From: Sphingomonas sabuli
GTDB lineage: Bacteria; Pseudomonadota; Alphaproteobacteria; Sphingomonadales; Sphingomonadaceae
Assembly (NCBI RefSeq): GCF_014352855.1
Contig: NZ_CP060697.1
Coordinates: forward strand, 2,252,001 to 2,316,000
Length of the DNA: 64,000 bases
Direction: 5' to 3'
Part shown: positions 3,553 through 39,604 of the stretch, piece after piece
How positions within the stretch are numbered: position 1 is the first letter of the stretch
How the letters are laid out: each line of letters opens with the position of its first letter
The notes under the pieces: model-generated
What the model saw: only the letters and a program-made list of their open reading frames with translations
Told to the model about the DNA's origin: nothing
Databases searched by the model: none
Translations under genes and position numbers: made by a program

Positions 3553-6366
3553 CTACGACGCGCGGCGCGCGGGTTCTTGCTGTGCCGGGCTGCTATGGCC
3601 CAGCGCATCGGCGATCAAGGCTGCCTGCTGCTGCGCATGGCGCTTGGCGAGGCCGGTGGCCGGCGACGCAGAGGCCTCGCGGCCGGCATAGCGCGGGCGC
3701 ATGCCATCGAAACCGGCCTCGGCAAGGCAACACTCGATCAGGGGGTTAACGAAGAACCAGGCGCCATTGTTCTGCGGTTCTTCCTGCGCCCACACGATAT
3801 CCGTCAGCCCGGGCATCGCCTGCAGGCGCTTGACCAGGGGTTCGGACGGGAACGGGTAGAGCTGTTCGATGCGCACGATCTCGGTCGTGGTGTCGCCGGC
3901 CGCGTCGCGCGCGTCCATCAGCTCGTACGCGACCTTGCCCGAACAAAGCACCAGCCGCGTGGTCTCGCCCGCCCGCGGGGGTCCGAGATCGCTGAGGATG
4001 CGCATGAAATGGCTTTCGCCGGTGAAGTCGGCAAGCTTCGACACCGCCAGCTTGTGGCGCAGCAGCGACTTCGGCGTCATCAACACCAGCGGTTTGCGGA
4101 AATCGCGCAGCAGCTGGCGGCGCAGGATGTGGAAGTAGTTGGCCGGCGTGGTGCAGTTGGCGACCTGCATATTGTCGTCCGCGCACAGCTGCAGATAGCG
4201 TTCGAGCCGCGCCGAGCTGTGTTCCGGCCCCTGGCCTTCGAACCCGTGCGGCAGCAGCAGGACCAGCCCGCTGGCGCGCAGCCACTTGGCCTCGCCGCTG
4301 GCAATGAACTGGTCGATGATGGTCTGCGCGCCGTTGGCGAAGTCGCCGAACTGCGCTTCCCACAGCACCAGGGTCTTCGGGTCGGCCAGCGAGTAGCCAT
4401 ATTCGAAGCCCAGCACGCCGAATTCGCTAAGCGGAGAATCGCGCACTTCGAAGCGGCCGCCGTCGATGGTGTTGAGCGGGATGTACTTGGCGCCGTTCTG
4501 CTGATCGACCCACACCGCGTGGCGTTGCGAAAAGGTGCCGCGGCCGCTGTCCTGCCCGGACAGGCGGACGTGGTGGCCCTGCGCGATCAGGCTGCCGAAA
4601 GCGAGCGCCTCGCCGGTTGCCCAGTCGAACCCTTCGCCGCTGGAAAACATTGCCGACTTGGCGTCGAGGATGCGCTGCAGCGTCTTGTGGACGTGCAATT
4701 CGGGTGGGACCGTGGTCAACGTCCGGCCGACGTCGCACAACAGACCCTGGCCGACGGCGGTGGCGGTGTTGCGCCGCGCGAGCGGCCCTTCGCTCGGCTT
4801 GTGCAGCCCGGCCCAGCGGCCTTCGAACCAGTCCGCCTTGTTGGGCAGGTAGCTGCCGGCGGATTCGAATTCCTCGTTGAGGTGGGCGATGTAGTTTTCG
4901 CGGTGGTTGTCGATCCATTTCTGGTCGACCACGCCCTCGTCGATCAGCCGCTTGCCGTAGATTTCGCTGATCGGCGGGTGCTGCCGGATTTCGGAATACA
5001 TCTGCGGCTGGGTGAAGCTGGGCTCGTCGCCTTCGTTGTGGCCGAACCGGCGGTAGCACCACATGTCGATGACGATGTCGCGGCCGAATTGCTGGCGGAA
5101 TTCGATCGCCATCTTGCAACAGAAAGTGACGGCTTCGGGATCGTCGGCATTGACGTGCAGGATCGGCGCTTGGACCGACTTGGCGACGTCGGTCGGGTAG
5201 GGCGAGGACCGCGCGAATTGCGGGCTGGTGGTGAAGCCGATCTGGTTGTTGATGACGAAGTGCAACGTGCCCCCGGTGCCGTAACCGGGCAGTCCGGAAA
5301 AGCTCAGGCATTCGAACACCACGCCCTGGCCCGCGAAGGCCGCGTCGCCGTGCAGCAGTAGCGGAAGCACGGTCTTGCCGTGCTTGTCGCCCTTGTCGAT
5401 CATCGTCGCGCGGGCCTTGCCCAACACGACCGGATCGACCGCTTCGAGGTGGGACGGGTTGGGCAGCAGCGACAGGTGCACCTTGATCCCGTCGAATTCG
5501 CGGTCGGACGAGGTGCCGAGATGGTATTTGACATCGCCCGAGCCGCCGACGTCGGCGGGATTGGTCGCGCCGCCGGCGAATTCGTGGAAGATCGCGCGAT
5601 AGGGCTTGCCCATCACGTTGGACAGGACGTTCAGCCGCCCGCGATGGGCCATGCCGACGTCGATTTCCTCGATGCCCAGCTGGCCGCCATATTTGATCAC
5701 CGCTTCAAGCGCGGGGATGGCGCTTTCGCCGCCGTCCAGCCCGAAGCGCTTGGTGCCGACATATTTGCGGGCGAGGAAGGTTTCCCACTGCTCGGCCTCG
5801 ATCACCTTGGCGAGGATCGCCTGCTTGCCGTCGGCGGTGAACTGGACGGTCTCGTCCTTGCCCTCGATCCGATCCTGGACGAAGCGCCGCTCGTCCAGGT
5901 CGTTGATGTGCATATATTCGACGCCGATTGTGCCGCAGTAATTGTCCTGCAGGATCTTGACGATTTCCCGCACCGTGCCGCGTTCGAGGCCGAGCGAGCC
6001 GCCCAGCCAGATCGGCCGGTCGAGGTCGGCATCGGAGAAGCCGTGGTAGGCCGGGGTCAGGTCGGCCGGGATCTCGCTGTGGTGAAGGCCCAGCGGATCG
6101 AGCTTGGCAGCCAGGTGCCCGCGCACGCGATAGGTGCGGATGAGCATCATCGCGCGGATCGAATCCTCGGCCGCGCGGCGGATGACGTCGGGATCGGCTG
6201 TGGCCGCGGCGGCGTCGCGCGACGAGGCCTGCCGGACTTCCTCGATCATCGCTTCGGTCGGGTCGAGCCCGAGGTTGAAATCGTCGAGCGCGCTGACCGG
6301 CCAGTTCGGCCGCGCCCAGCTGGGGCCCGGCGCGCGGTCTAGGGAGATGGTTTGGTCGTCAGCCAT
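3553..6366 (-). CDS. sucA: 2-oxoglutarate dehydrogenase E1 component
   Basis: Thiamine-diphosphate-dependent decarboxylase that commits 2-oxoglutarate to succinyl-CoA in the TCA cycle. The 937-residue length is typical. The family landmarks are all visible: [25 protein letters not shown], the TPP/Mg region [18 protein letters not shown], and [16 protein letters not shown]; the transketolase-like C-terminal half includes [18 protein letters not shown]. It starts at [17 protein letters not shown], six bases after the sucD stop, and sucB follows after 16 bases, so the E1 and E2 subunits are co-transcribed. The third subunit (lpd) is not in the window. A 751-residue open frame on the opposite strand is a composition artefact. 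Confidence 0.97.
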
Positions 6367-35178: not shown

Positions 35179-35252
35179 GGCCCGATGGCGGAGTGGTTAC
35201 GCAGAGGACTGCAAATCCTTGCACGCCGGTTCGATTCCGGCTCGGGCCTCCA
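35179..35252 (+). tRNA. tRNA-Cys (GCA)
   Basis: The acceptor arms GGCCCGA (35179-35185) and TCGGGCC (35242-35248) pair perfectly, with a genome-encoded CCA at 35250-35252. The anticodon loop CTGCAAA (35209-35215) contains GCA, reading the Cys codons. The T-arm sequence GGTTCGATTCC is canonical. Its 3' end is the insertion point of the mobile elements that follow. Confidence 0.96.
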
Positions 35253-35412
35253 CCCACATTTCGAGACTTAAGTCTCTGGTTTTATTGTGAAAAAAGTGGC
35301 GCTGTTCTGCGCCTTTCAGCGGACGAAAAGGTGTCCGGAGACCGCGTTAATTGCGGACGATCACGGTGATTCGAACCCGCAGTCTCCGCGGGCAAATTCG
35401 AATGCACGGTTT
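35227..35412 (+). repeat. 186-bp modular repeat, copy 1 (tRNA 3' end and flank)
   Basis: It aligns without gaps with 37452-37637 (offset 2225 bases), about 65% identical by hand count. Identity is concentrated in blocks: the T-arm CGGTTCGATTC, TCCAC-CACATTT, the palindrome GAGACTTAAGTCTC (35263-35276), the hairpin GGCGC-GTTCTGCGCC, GGAGACCGCG (35337), TCTCCGCGGGCAA (35383) and ACGGTTT. Divergent spacers of equal length (17, 17, 36 and 10 bases) separate them. It probably marks an attachment/end sequence of tRNA-targeting elements. Confidence 0.8.
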
Positions 35413-35550
35413 GGCGGCTTCGTTGCCCGACGCGTGGCCGTTGTTCGAGAAAACGGGCGCCCCGAGCTGGCACCCGTTCCCCTGTTGATCCGGCACACGT
35501 GGGAAATCTCTCCTCGCGGACGAAATCCAACATTGCAAGCAGCCGGCGTA

Positions 35551-37311
35551 CTACCAGCCAGGCGCTGCCCTCAGGAAATCAGGTTGATCGGGAAAGCCCA
35601 AGATACGGCGCTGGAGCGCCCAATCCATCGGTAGCTCAACTGAATAGAGCGTACGGCACGTCAATCCCGCTGGCTGTGATCCGTCCCGAATGGCCGCGAC
35701 GATATCCGGCGCGAGATAGTTCAGTCGCGCCAGCTGGGTGAAGCGCTTGGGATGGCAGTGCACCTTCATGGCAAGGTCGGTGACTGTATAGACGTTCCGG
35801 TCATCGAGGGCGGCCTGGGCAACCCGCGCCTTGTCCAGCATCGCCACGAGGTGCTTGTTCGGGAGCTGCGCAGACTCAGCGCTTCGTCGCTTTAGCAGGA
35901 GCGTCAATTCGCGTTTCATCGAAACAGCATTGGCGGGAATTTCTATCACGGTGGTCTGATGTGAGCGTTCCCATGCGATCGTGTCGCCGCGAAAGAGTCC
36001 GATCCCGTCCCACTGCAGAAGCCTGGGCAGTTCCGACAGGCGGACGATGATCTTGACCCAGGAGCTCGACAGTTCAATTCGCTCGATCAGCGCTTTCAGG
36101 ATGCACTGCGCACGCTTGGGCGTGGCGGATTCAAGGGCTTTCGCGATGCGATCTCCGGCACCGCAAAGCTTGTTGAGTTTGCCGTCGTGATTGCCGGTCT
36201 CGAGCAGCAGCCCCCGCACCTGCTCGCGATTGCTCAGCAAGGATGTGATCGAGCCGAGAACCAGTTGTTCAAGCGGGTCGGCTTTGACCCGGTAGCGCCG
36301 TGCCCCGTGGCGGCGGCCCCACTCCGACTGGTTGGAAATGTAATAGCGCCTGACCTCACGATAGCGTCGGTCGCGGAACACACCCATCTTGCGTCCAAAC
36401 CCATCGTAGATGAGGTCGCGCAGCAAGTCGGTCTTGTAGATCTCCACGACCTTTGCCCGCGTTCGCTTGGCGCGGAGCGCCTGGACGTCTTCCCAGAGGT
36501 CTTCGGGAATGATTGCATCGTGGATGCCGGGATAGCAGTTGCCCTTATTGCGAACCTGGCCCGCGTAGAGCGGATTGCCGAGCATATTCCACACGCTTGA
36601 GGCAGAGATTCCGCGACCGCGGACGAAGTTGCCGCGCTTTGATACGCGGCTTCTGCGTAGGACTCCGCGTCTTGCCAGTTCGCGCGAGACGGTCACGTAG
36701 CTTTTCGCCTCGAGATAGCGCCTGAACATCCAGCGGATGACCTCGGCTTCTGGCTCGTTCACGACGAGTTTCTTGTCGACGAGATCGTAACCGAACGGGG
36801 GATTGCCGCCGACAAAGAGCCCGCGCTGGCGCATTGCAGTGAACTTGTCTCGAAGCCGGTCGGAAGAGATTTCGCGTTCGAACTGTGCGAACGTGAGCAG
36901 GACGTTCAGGATGAGGCGGCCGGTACTGTCTGCAGTATCAAAGTTCTGCGTGACCGCGACAAATGCGACACCAAAGCTCTCGAACAGGTCCATCAACCGG
37001 ACGAAGTCGAGAAGGGTCCGGCTGATACGATCGAGCTTGTAGATGACGACAACGTCGACCACGCCCGACTCGACGTCGCTCAGGAGGTCCTGGAGAGCAG
37101 GGCGATTGAGGTTGCCTCCCGACTGGCCGCCGTCGTCGTAGTGCTTCGGAATTTCCGTCCAGCCCTTTGGCTGCTGGCTGGCGACGTAAGCCGAACAAAT
37201 TGCACGCTGCGCCTCAAGCGAGCTGAACTGATGATCGAGTCCCTGTTCGACGCTCCGCCGAGTGTAAATCGCGCAGCGCTTTTGCTGAAGGTCGACGGTG
37301 GTGGGCATCAT
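35551..37311 (-). CDS. Large serine recombinase (site-specific integrase)
   Basis: A 586-residue large serine recombinase. The N-terminal resolvase domain has the catalytic serine in CAIYTRRSVEQGL, the KLDRISRTLLDF segment and the AQFEREISSDRLRDKF helix. The recombinase domain follows (GGNPPFGYDLVDKKL, and WNMLGNPLYAGQVRNKG), then a long C-terminal region. Such enzymes insert and excise elements between attP and attB sites. It is the only gene between the tRNA-Cys and the second repeat copy, so the insertion seems to consist of little more than its recombinase. Two ATGs (37311, 37308) are adjacent. GC content and codon use look lower than the core neighbours. Confidence 0.92.
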   Translation of the reverse strand: MMPTTVDLQQKRCAIYTRRSVEQGLDHQFSSLEAQRAICSAYVASQQPKGWTEIPKHYDDGGQSGGNLNRPALQDLLSDVESGVVDVVVIYKLDRISRTLLDFVRLMDLFESFGVAFVAVTQNFDTADSTGRLILNVLLTFAQFEREISSDRLRDKFTAMRQRGLFVGGNPPFGYDLVDKKLVVNEPEAEVIRWMFRRYLEAKSYVTVSRELARRGVLRRSRVSKRGNFVRGRGISASSVWNMLGNPLYAGQVRNKGNCYPGIHDAIIPEDLWEDVQALRAKRTRAKVVEIYKTDLLRDLIYDGFGRKMGVFRDRRYREVRRYYISNQSEWGRRHGARRYRVKADPLEQLVLGSITSLLSNREQVRGLLLETGNHDGKLNKLCGAGDRIAKALESATPKRAQCILKALIERIELSSSWVKIIVRLSELPRLLQWDGIGLFRGDTIAWERSHQTTVIEIPANAVSMKRELTLLLKRRSAESAQLPNKHLVAMLDKARVAQAALDDRNVYTVTDLAMKVHCHPKRFTQLARLNYLAPDIVAAIRDGSQPAGLTCRTLYSVELPMDWALQRRILGFPDQPDFLRAAPGW

Positions 37312-37451
37312 CGAAGGAGCTCCTGTTTGGCGCCCCCTCGTTGCGATCTTACGCTTGTGCCTCCGCTGCCGCGATCCCGAAAGCTGGACTGGACTTCCTC
37401 GTCAGAAAGAGCGACGCACTTGACTGCGGGGGAGAATGGAACCTGTCTCTG

Positions 37452-37637
37452 CGGTTCGATTCAAGGTCGCTCCTCCACTCACATTTAGAGACTTAAGTCT
37501 CTGGTGTTACGCTAAGGGGAATGGCGCAGTTCTGCGCCTCTCAGGTGCTACAGCCCTCCGCGGAGACCGCGCCCTTCAACGGATCTTCGGCGATTCCCCG
37601 CGCGGGGTCTCCGCGGGCAAGATCTGGAACACGGTTT
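37452..37637 (+). repeat. 186-bp modular repeat, copy 2
   Basis: The second copy of the repeat described at 35227. It starts with CGGTTCGATTC, the T-arm of a tRNA, but no tRNA body precedes it, so it is a detached tRNA 3'-end remnant. The palindrome AGAGACTTAAGTCTCT (37487-37502) and the hairpin GGCGCAGTTCTGCGCC are better paired here than in copy 1. The recombinase gene lies between the two copies, while the decayed tyrosine integrase follows this one. Confidence 0.8.
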
Positions 37638-37749: not shown

Positions 37750-38226
37750 ATGGGTTACTCGTCATTCGATCCCGTTGGCCGCAACGTGCCTGCTTGGAAC
37801 GCGAGCAGGAAGATTGGGCCGAAGCGTGCGTTAAAGCAGAAGGAGATCTGGGCAATCCGCTTCTGGCTAAAGCAGGAAGGGCGAGTTCGTGACCGTGCAC
37901 TGTTTGACGTGGCAGTTGATAGCAAACTACGAGGTTGTGATCTCGTACGCTTGAAGATCGGCGACTTAGTGAGTGGCAACGATGTTCGGTCCTGAACTCT
38001 CGTTATCCAGCGAAAGACCGGCCGACCTGTCCAGTTCGAGATTCTGGAACCGGCGCGCATCAGCCTGTTGAAGTGGCTCGAGCGACGCGGTGGGACAATC
38101 GAGGATTACGCGTTCCCGAGCCGAGTGGACCACTCTCAGCACCTGGGCACGCGGCAGAACGGCCGCCTCGTTGATGAGTGGGTAACTGCGATTGGACTGA
38201 AGGCCGGCGATTTCGGCACTCACTCC
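37750..38226 (+). pseudogene. Decayed tyrosine-type integrase
   Basis: From the ATG at 37750 the frame encodes a compact tyrosine recombinase: IGPKRALKQKEIWAIRF, then VRDRALFDVAVDSKLRGCDL containing the first catalytic Arg. A TGA at 37993-37995 interrupts it, most simply a CGA-to-TGA change. The same frame continues with IQRKTGRPVQFEILEPARI and RGGTIEDYAFPSRVDHSQHL, then stops matching the family after DFGTHS at 38226, just before the expected LRRTK motif. The second catalytic Arg/His box and the nucleophile Tyr are gone. Both a nonsense mutation and a 3' truncation are present, so it is inactive. It represents an older insertion at the same tRNA. Confidence 0.8.
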
Positions 38227-38272
38227 TCCACCAGTGTCCCCAAGGCATGCTCGTCGAGGGCCGGACGGTGGG

Positions 38273-39604
38273 TTACGCGGTTCGGCCCGCCAATTCCCGG
38301 TTGATGAACAGCGCGCCCAGGGTGCCGATGACGCCCGACAGGAGGTAAAGCCCGATCGCCCACAGTCCGATTTGGCTCGCGAGGAACAGCGCGACGAGCG
38401 GCGCGAAGCCTGCCCCGAAGAACCACGCCGAGTTCGAGACGATGGCGGCGCCGGTGTAGCGATGCTGCCGGTCGAAGCTGGCATTTACTATGCCTGACGA
38501 TTGCCCAAAGGCGAGGCCGAGCAGGACGAAACCGCTGAGCATGTAGAACGCCTCGCCAATCTCGCCCGCGCCGAGCAATTGGGGTGCAAAGCCGCTGTAC
38601 GCTCCGATCAGCGCGGCCGACACGCCGAGCACGGCGCGACGGCCGACGCGGTCGGCAATGGCTCCGGACCCGAGCATCGCCAGCACGCACACTGCCGCGC
38701 CGAGGGCTTCGAGGAGAAGGAAGCGCACCAGGCTCTCGTTCGTGGTCAGCTTCACCCAGGACAGCGGGAACACCGTCACCAGGTGGAACAGCGCAAAGCT
38801 GGCGAGCGGGGCGAAGGAGCCCAGGACGATCGTCCGCCATTGCGCGCGAAGGGTCGCGAACGGCGGCGAAGGCTGCAGCTCGCGATTGTCGAACAGGCGC
38901 TTGAATTCGGGGGTCTGGACCAGCCGCAGGCGCGCGAACAGCGCAACGACATTGATCGCCAGCGCGACGAAGAACGGGTAGCGCCAACCCCAACTCAGGA
39001 AATCCTGCGGCGACAGGATGCCGAGGAAATAGGCGAACAGCGCGCTGGCAAGGACTAGGCCGAGCGGTGCCCCCAGCTGGGGAATCATGGCGTACCAACC
39101 CCGCTTTGCGGACGGCGCATTCAGCGACAGCAGCGAGGGAAGACCGTCCCACGTCCCGCCCAGCGCCACACCTTGCATCAGACGGAAGAAGCCGAGCAAT
39201 CCGATGCTCGCCGCGCCGATCTGTGCGTAGCCCGCCAGCAGCGCGATGGCGATCGTCGATCCGCCAAGCAGGAACAGGGCAATGGTCAGCTTCACGCCGC
39301 GCCCATGCTTCTGGTCGAGATAGGTAAAGATCAGCGTCCCGATCGGCCGTCCGACGAAGGCCAGCGAGAAAAGGGCGAACGAATAAAGGGTCGCCGTCAG
39401 CGGGTCGGCAAAGGGAAAGACGTAGCTTGGGAACACCAGTACCGAGGCGATGGCGTAAACGAAGAAGTCGAAGAATTCGCTGGTGCGACCGATGATCACG
39501 CCGATGGCGATATCCCCCGGGCCGACCTTTGCGTCATGCGAGGTAAGCAGCTGCGCATCGCGCTCGAGCGGTGTGGAGTTCGCTGCCGAAGCGTTGGCGG
39601 TCAT
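38273..39604 (-). CDS. MFS transporter, metabolite:H+ symporter (MHS) type
   Basis: A 443-residue, 12-helix transporter of the major facilitator superfamily. It resembles the MHS branch (ProP/ShiA/KgtP-like): IGVIIGRTSEFFDFFVYAIASVLVFP at the first helix, FVGRPIGTLIFTYLDQKHGRG for the loop 2-3 motif, and GVALGGTWDGLPSLL. Members import organic acids, shikimate or osmolytes with protons; the substrate is unknown. It is divergent from the oxidase operon, sharing a 109-base intergenic region with an operator-like repeat. Its 3' end abuts the truncated integrase, but the C-terminus looks intact. Confidence 0.86.
   Translation of the reverse strand: MTANASAANSTPLERDAQLLTSHDAKVGPGDIAIGVIIGRTSEFFDFFVYAIASVLVFPSYVFPFADPLTATLYSFALFSLAFVGRPIGTLIFTYLDQKHGRGVKLTIALFLLGGSTIAIALLAGYAQIGAASIGLLGFFRLMQGVALGGTWDGLPSLLSLNAPSAKRGWYAMIPQLGAPLGLVLASALFAYFLGILSPQDFLSWGWRYPFFVALAINVVALFARLRLVQTPEFKRLFDNRELQPSPPFATLRAQWRTIVLGSFAPLASFALFHLVTVFPLSWVKLTTNESLVRFLLLEALGAAVCVLAMLGSGAIADRVGRRAVLGVSAALIGAYSGFAPQLLGAGEIGEAFYMLSGFVLLGLAFGQSSGIVNASFDRQHRYTGAAIVSNSAWFFGAGFAPLVALFLASQIGLWAIGLYLLSGVIGTLGALFINRELAGRTA

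Follow-up and report, generated by a model that had tools for sequence, protein, structure and literature searches.

Two copies of a 186-bp sequence in a 64,000-nucleotide stretch of the Sphingomonas sabuli genome (contig NZ_CP060697.1, positions 2,252,001–2,316,000; hereafter the window, with coordinates counted from its first base) are, on sequence comparison, close to certainly the ends of integrative elements that target tRNA genes and encode a large serine recombinase (LSR). Because the linkage between LSR and tRNA gene holds in both search directions, the copies are read as the tRNA-side ends of two such elements in tandem. With a probability of roughly 0.68, the attachment ends of these elements would lie in the T-arm of the tRNA, and the ~160 bp behind the tRNA gene (the module) would be a series of phased DNA sites for the LSR, and perhaps for integration host factor (IHF), that control recombination.

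The copies, at 35227–35412 and 37452–37637 on the forward strand, align without a gap at an offset of 2225, with 121 of 186 positions identical (65%), and identity drops off beyond these limits. Both ARAGORN and Rfam identify an intact tRNA-Cys(gca) at 35179–35252 (forward strand), so copy 1, which runs from the tRNA T-arm through CCA into the subterminal module of the tRNA-proximal element (copy alignment, model match), starts inside its T-arm. Copy 2 starts with a degenerate version of the tRNA-Cys 3′ end (T-loop to CCA; 37452–37477, forward strand), identified from the copy alignment as the junction of two elements, and continues into the module of the older, displaced element (37478–37637, forward strand; model E = 2.2e-25, with copy 2 itself one of the nine training rows). 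The initial annotation of this stretch had described a gapless alignment at about 65% identity beginning at a tRNA-Cys 3′ end, and both points hold. A blastn search with copy 1 against its own 2.51-Mb genome gave one further significant match, copy 2 (E = 4.2e-17 across 93 nt); the next match, at an unrelated place, had E = 0.235. Between the copies lies an LSR of 586 aa (35551–37311, reverse strand), convergent with the tRNA gene, and the flanking of this element by an intact tRNA and a displaced 3′ fragment is the Islander signature.

The block pattern recurs behind other tRNA genes. Of 61 genus genomes, 60 gave a match to a query joining tRNA-Cys to the sequence behind it, in most cases across the tRNA, and the block pattern stood behind tRNA-Cys in genomes G054, G032, G025, G008, G007, G035, G027 and G068. 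A sequence-only model (R1), built from nine tRNA-Cys-type copies including both window copies, matched 12 of 71 genus genomes at E 0.01 and 36 of 397 family genomes at E 0.001, the own genome being counted in each; some of the weaker genus matches sit behind tRNA-Ser or tRNA-Leu. Among the 29 module-selected loci examined out of 42 places outside the own genome, an intact tRNA gene (Leu, Ser, Thr or Arg) lay directly upstream in 21, most of the other eight having a CCA-ending remnant by eye, and an LSR match was present within 1.5 kb in 18.

From the recombinase side, a profile made from 12 such LSRs was searched in named genomes, and the best 80 of at least 569 confirmed relatives were kept. 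A convergent tRNA gene occurred at 56 of these 80 loci, 165–475 bp (median, 223 bp) beyond the point where the LSR match ends, and these tRNAs represented 13 isotypes and 22 anticodons (14 isotypes counting Cys). The module was anchored in 40 of the 56. The remaining 24 loci yielded a module-like anchor in nine under looser criteria, some perhaps by chance, with a displaced T-loop in five of these. These records were mostly from Alphaproteobacteria, with a few metagenome-assembled genomes labelled otherwise. Separate searches gave 11 plasmid records and eight phage records with LSR relatives. Of two plasmids inspected, a Sphingobium megaplasmid (L206) carried tRNA-Gln, module and LSR, another plasmid (L205) carried the LSR with no tRNA and, by eye, no module, and no usable annotated attachment (att) site was present in the four phage records inspected. 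The initial annotation had proposed a recombinase-recognized element end, to be checked by looking for the blocks behind tRNA genes in related genomes together with a recombinase; that recurrence was found in both search directions, and the recombinase is of the serine family. Its doubt about a simple recent duplication was also well placed: a local or simple recent duplication is excluded, given that the pattern recurs widely in other genomes and that both copies belong to a widespread family.

The position of the likely crossover can be read from tandem and displaced ends. In the window, and likewise at L162 and L146, the displaced copy resembles its tRNA from approximately the T-loop (GGTTCGA) on and little before it, a fourth locus (L116) has similar but weaker sharing, and the displaced ends at L131, L149, L153, L166 and L180 have a T-loop-to-CCA stretch ahead of the module. 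Since these ends share sequence from the T-loop on, the T-arm is the likely attB, and the elements would supply the tRNA from T-loop to CCA; for the window tRNA-Cys the same boundary is suggested by its tandem copies and the displaced ends. The LSR would insert its element into the T-arm of the tRNA, and as the element would carry the 3′ part from T-loop to CCA, insertion would restore a complete tRNA. If another element then entered the same tRNA, it would push the older end outward, leaving tandem copies. At L189, a 163-bp insert behind tRNA-Tyr is flanked by a 47-nt tRNA repeat that begins at tRNA position 38 and recurs at +163; this repeat starts further upstream than the T-loop and may derive from another kind of element, a different small insertion located ahead of the LSR element.

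Conserved blocks reach ~160 bp past the tRNA, and only some of those first proposed are general. The palindrome block is a perfect GAGACTTAAGTCTC in the window copies, whereas other tRNA-Cys copies keep AGTCTC there and some other lineages have an IHF-like motif. Likewise, the GGCGC…GCGCC hairpin exists in part of the family, whereas the block that recurs more widely is a TTCCGCGG-TT-like sequence (B3; 35305–35315 in copy 1, 52 bp from the tRNA 3′ end). Beyond it lies an inner inverted repeat, GAGAC and GTCTC, ~42–47 bp apart and flanked by element-specific inverted arms; block and spacing analysis places its halves at 35338–35342 and 35382–35386 in copy 1, and the longer GGAGAC/GTCTCC pair is clear in both window copies. 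All of these copy 1 features were placed on the forward strand. When 68 of 85 modules were placed by anchoring on GAGAC..GTCTC with the flanks ignored (17 left out), the mean pairing score of an arm with its own partner was 5.65, compared to 3.99 ± 0.13 for permuted partners (0 of 2000 permutations as high), and 25 modules scored ≥7 where 2.0 were expected. Arms therefore vary by locus yet remain mutually inverted. Set against LSR identity and target, outer-arm identity did not separate cleanly.

The spacing of the blocks falls into bands. Across the 69 of 85 modules that were anchored (16 left out), the distance from tRNA end to GAGAC was 82–86 bp (n = 19), 91–96 bp (n = 9) or 101–108 bp (n = 40), with none at 87–90 or 97–100 bp; a lone value of 125 bp, probably from L189, where the first copy is another sequence, was treated as spurious. 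In the 48 modules with B3 (at least 8 of 11 matches), the distances from tRNA to B3 (52–54 or 61–64 bp) and from B3 to GAGAC (31–33, 39–44 or 50–53 bp) each held for 45; the steps are ~9–11 bp, or one turn of DNA. Mapped onto the LSR tree, the spacing classes required 6, 7 and 6 changes (55, 38 and 38 rows); inheritance of a single state thus does not account for the regularity, although the independent events are few. For IHF, the consensus was taken to be YAANNNNYTGATW. Within ~60 nt of the tRNA end, exact matches occurred in 8 of 85 modules (shuffled mean, 0.09; maximum, 1 in 100 shuffles) and matches with at most one mismatch in 17 (shuffled mean, 2.35; maximum, 7), compared to 1 and 4 in the opposite orientation (shuffled means, 0.13 and 2.69). 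Copy 1 has one such IHF-like site with a single mismatch to this presumed consensus (35269–35281, forward strand), overlapping the palindrome block.

The LSR of the window has a Resolvase domain (PF00239, 113.2 bits; cut-off, 23.3) followed by a Recombinase domain (PF07508, 56.4 bits; cut-off, 21.1). R18 and S20, which we take to be catalytic, are invariant across 62 sequences, the window LSR included; from alignment A4, eight of 58 LSR slices with stops near the N-terminal end were dropped. The LSR profile matches the structures of TP901-1, A118 and other integrases up to approximately position 480 of 562, and in each of the two proteins tested the ~120 residues at the C-terminal end match phrog_14161 (a small family named recombinase), as does the C-terminal region of the window LSR. 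This region contains a conserved stretch, RLxRLAFLAPDIVxAILxGRQP, that looks like a helix-turn-helix. The NCBIfam equivalogs for the staphylococcal cassette recombinases CcrA, CcrB and CcrC all scored below their cut-offs, the best being CcrB at 122.5 bits against 900. LSRs behind conserved blocks are mostly 40–60% identical to each other. On a tree of 70 LSRs, made by a quick search with one short LSR (L193) dropped, tRNA isotype changed 23 times compared to 48.7 with shuffled labels; the choice of target follows the protein, with many switches. One LSR with a tRNA-Arg target (L127) groups with the tRNA-Leu LSRs, and its arms are Leu-like by eye. From 22 loci inspected, 21 gave an open reading frame directly upstream of the LSR, and of ten tested (L123, L124, L136, L139, L156, L170, L179, L181, L196 and L198) eight were DUF2924 and two DUF3489; because of this position these genes are candidate directionality or accessory factors.

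The best reading of the module is a phased nucleoprotein site. Covarying arms and ~10-bp bands, both computed from the modules, are as expected for protein sites phased on DNA, and the sites in question (an IHF-like site behind the tRNA in some lineages, B3, the GAGAC/GTCTC pair and the inverted arms) would be helically spaced. The LSR, perhaps through its extra C-terminal domain, and perhaps IHF would bind there and bring the DNA into a folded complex controlling recombination at the T-loop, much as lambda integrase uses its arm sites, though with serine chemistry; we infer from the sequences both the binding proteins and the folded complex, as well as any role of the module in the direction or regulation of recombination. 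The end identity of the copies, their linkage to tRNA and LSR, and the T-loop boundary in several ends are likewise computed results.

Several observations weigh against it. The module was not anchored at 16 of the 56 tRNA-linked named loci, including all four Tyr and both Asp loci, and 15 of the 80 LSR-selected loci lacked both a module anchor and any tRNA within 1.5 kb (in four, <500 bp were available past the LSR). Distal tRNA fragments were rarely found within the few kb examined: at ≥20 of 26 matches, one was present at 3 of the 56 named loci (L146, L162 and L189) and 1 of 27 others (L116). The window copies have weak outer arms, both being among the 40 of 85 modules lacking a qualifying arm pair, and the window LSR is the longest branch on the tree, and a very long one. 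There are 140 bp between the LSR start and copy 2, leaving no room for a DUF2924 gene, and the window element may be a reduced or decaying derivative. The spacing bands share ancestry, so that the Rayleigh value (R = 0.67, period 10.0) is no true probability, and outlier labels account for up to two of the changes counted on the tree. Just 8 of 85 modules have an exact IHF-like site, against a consensus that was presumed. Finally, no helix-turn-helix was identified in the C-terminal domain, where SopB (E = 0.074, 2/26) and IclR (E = 0.06, 1/26) helix-turn-helix families were outscored by unrelated families.

An unlikely alternative is that there is nothing unusual about the blocks, which would combine a minimal LSR att half-site, a terminator of the tRNA or LSR, and regulatory repeats and play no part in recombination. 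This would fit the description of serine integrases as enzymes for which short att sites suffice and host factors are unnecessary (PMC4111918; here and below, statements on cited work refer to the portions of text available), and in part of the family a GGCGCAGTTCTGCGCC-TTT sequence is terminator-like by eye. However, blocks kept over ~160 bp behind LSRs that are mostly 40–60% identical, with banded spacing and co-changing arms, exceed what a terminator would be expected to require.

Somewhat less probable again is that the module is a structured RNA, either a small RNA trailing the tRNA or a structure in the 3′ untranslated region of the recombinase mRNA, with the blocks as stems. The initial annotation had offered a structured RNA behind the tRNA next to the element end, and of the two it is the one that lost ground. 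The inverted arms do covary, transcription from the tRNA promoter could extend through the region, and the 3′ arm is offset by ~15–20 nt, like internal loops of RNA. Both the arm and the inner stem are also predicted by consensus folds of subgroups (Thr, −25.5 kcal/mol; Leu2, −18.6 kcal/mol), a further point against phased DNA sites. Compensated changes were present in 2 of 11 pairs of the consensus fold for the nine Cys copies, a weak fold of just −9.97 kcal/mol with a covariation term of +0.35. In Rfam 15, the tRNA alone matched at gathering score, and no credible weak match lay over the module. An RNA stem should tolerate G-U clearly more than A-C, so the similar numbers of G-U and A-C arm pairs in three counts (13/13, 6/3 and 30/22) speak against RNA. 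DNA sites are favored because of this parity, the weak Cys fold, the absence of an Rfam match over the module and the spacer lengths in ~10-bp bands.

It is very improbable that the module encodes a guide steering the LSR to its tRNA, like the non-coding RNA with target-matching loops of IS110/IS1111-type bridge-RNA systems: this would explain 14 isotypes served by one recombinase family, and a few isolated direct matches exist (e.g., 11/11 in L124), but the reverse-complement match to the own tRNA (7.38) barely differed from that to others (7.22; own better in 43% of 56), the direct match (8.19 compared to 7.26; own better in 52%) owed its excess mainly to L189 and L146 with a second tRNA end, and targets cluster on the LSR protein tree, with the arms of L127 resembling those of its Leu relatives. 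With no excess of own-tRNA matches beyond loci with a second tRNA end, the guide was rejected.

Compared to known systems, the LSRs share the Resolvase and Recombinase domains of the phiC31, Bxb1, A118 and TP901-1 serine integrases, with profile matches to the TP901-1 and A118 structures, and differ from phiC31-type enzymes in their tRNA 3′-end target, the phrog_14161 C-terminal region and the ~160-bp conserved region past the tRNA, where an LSR would be expected to need a minimal att site of ~50 bp. For serine integrases, the available text of PMC4111918 stresses minimal att sites and independence of host factors, and as of 2014 no targeting of tRNA genes by such integrases was known (PMC4383910). 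The tyrosine-integrase islands treated by Islander show the same combination of intact tRNA and displaced 3′ fragment (PMC4383910); here a serine-family recombinase lies between the copies, and the sole tyrosine recombinase is broken and outside, behind copy 2. A close parallel is the ssrA islands of Dehalococcoides, in which DsiB, a CcrB-like serine recombinase, acts at the transfer-messenger RNA (tmRNA) gene: these also have a reverse-strand serine recombinase by attL at an RNA gene, tandem islands and islands without an integration module, but are described at tmRNA only, from Dehalococcoides and a single marine fosmid; their module includes another serine recombinase, a small one, and the portions available describe no phased sites (PMC3146451). 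The Paracoccus phage vB_PamS_Pami6 is a further alphaproteobacterial case of a serine recombinase with an assigned tRNA target, tRNA-Met; it is a single case, likened here by description, and 11 of the 15 serine recombinases in that study clustered without identified sites (PMC6536676). Elsewhere, serine-recombinase mobilizable elements have been placed inside genes (PMC5704250), the tRNA-gene integrases of S. meliloti are tyrosine integrases, one of which also resembles a serine recombinase (PMC11476347), and the available text of Integrase-On-Demand (2026, PMC12884075) does not specify which serine integrases use tRNA genes. No description of a tRNA-wide LSR family or of its module was found in a literature search that left most subscription papers outside.

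A comparable attachment region is that of lambda-type attP, which shares a length of the order of 200 bp, several sites and, for some modules, an IHF-like site (PMC4111918). Lambda attP serves a tyrosine recombinase, whereas the recombinase here is a serine one and the module sites are putative binding sites. A tentative extension, at somewhat less than even odds, is that this widespread LSR clade evolved an attachment apparatus like that of lambda integrase, with helically phased arm sites that an added C-terminal domain binds with help from IHF, next to a T-arm crossover, and thereby converged on a complex, regulated att site. If true, a single enzyme family would be able to colonize the 3′ ends of as many as 14 tRNA isotypes, change targets time and again and accumulate in tandem arrays. 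The value of serine integrases lies in their use as one-enzyme, minimal-site tools (PMC4111918), and tRNA targeting has been described as a trait of tyrosine integrases (PMC4383910); an LSR clade with a tRNA 3′-end target and a long phased module would be an exception on both counts. It would also supply integrases aimed at tRNA genes, which are present in every genome, and natural pairs of related LSRs with different targets would offer material for working out specificity.

Behind copy 2 is a broken remnant of a small tyrosine recombinase (37750–38235, forward strand; end approximate), 62% identical to a counterpart at L043; alone, the window piece falls under the Pfam cut-off (E = 0.077), while the L043 piece passes (E = 6.2e-7). 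Besides the window, related small tyrosine recombinases occur at seven loci: behind the module in L043, ~1.0–1.3 kb before the LSR start in L132, L178, L180, L189 and L194, and 3 kb past the LSR in L151. Use of the synteny of a major facilitator superfamily gene (38273–39604) to place the right border of the window element gave no result, this gene lying elsewhere than tRNA-Cys where both were located. Several genus copies had no LSR of this family within up to 6 kb behind the tRNA. Modules without an intact LSR over the same distance were seen at L108, L114, L117, L100, L039, L040 and L043; candidate readings are remnants, or ends usable in trans. Among these, L114 retains a short C-terminal LSR fragment, and the arms of L108 are perfect (11/11). 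At L045 (genome G018), a 46-nt tRNA-Cys 5′ half (5064–5109 in tRNA orientation, 93% identical) lies ~2.4 kb upstream of the intact tRNA-Cys, indicating another insertion or duplication at the same locus.

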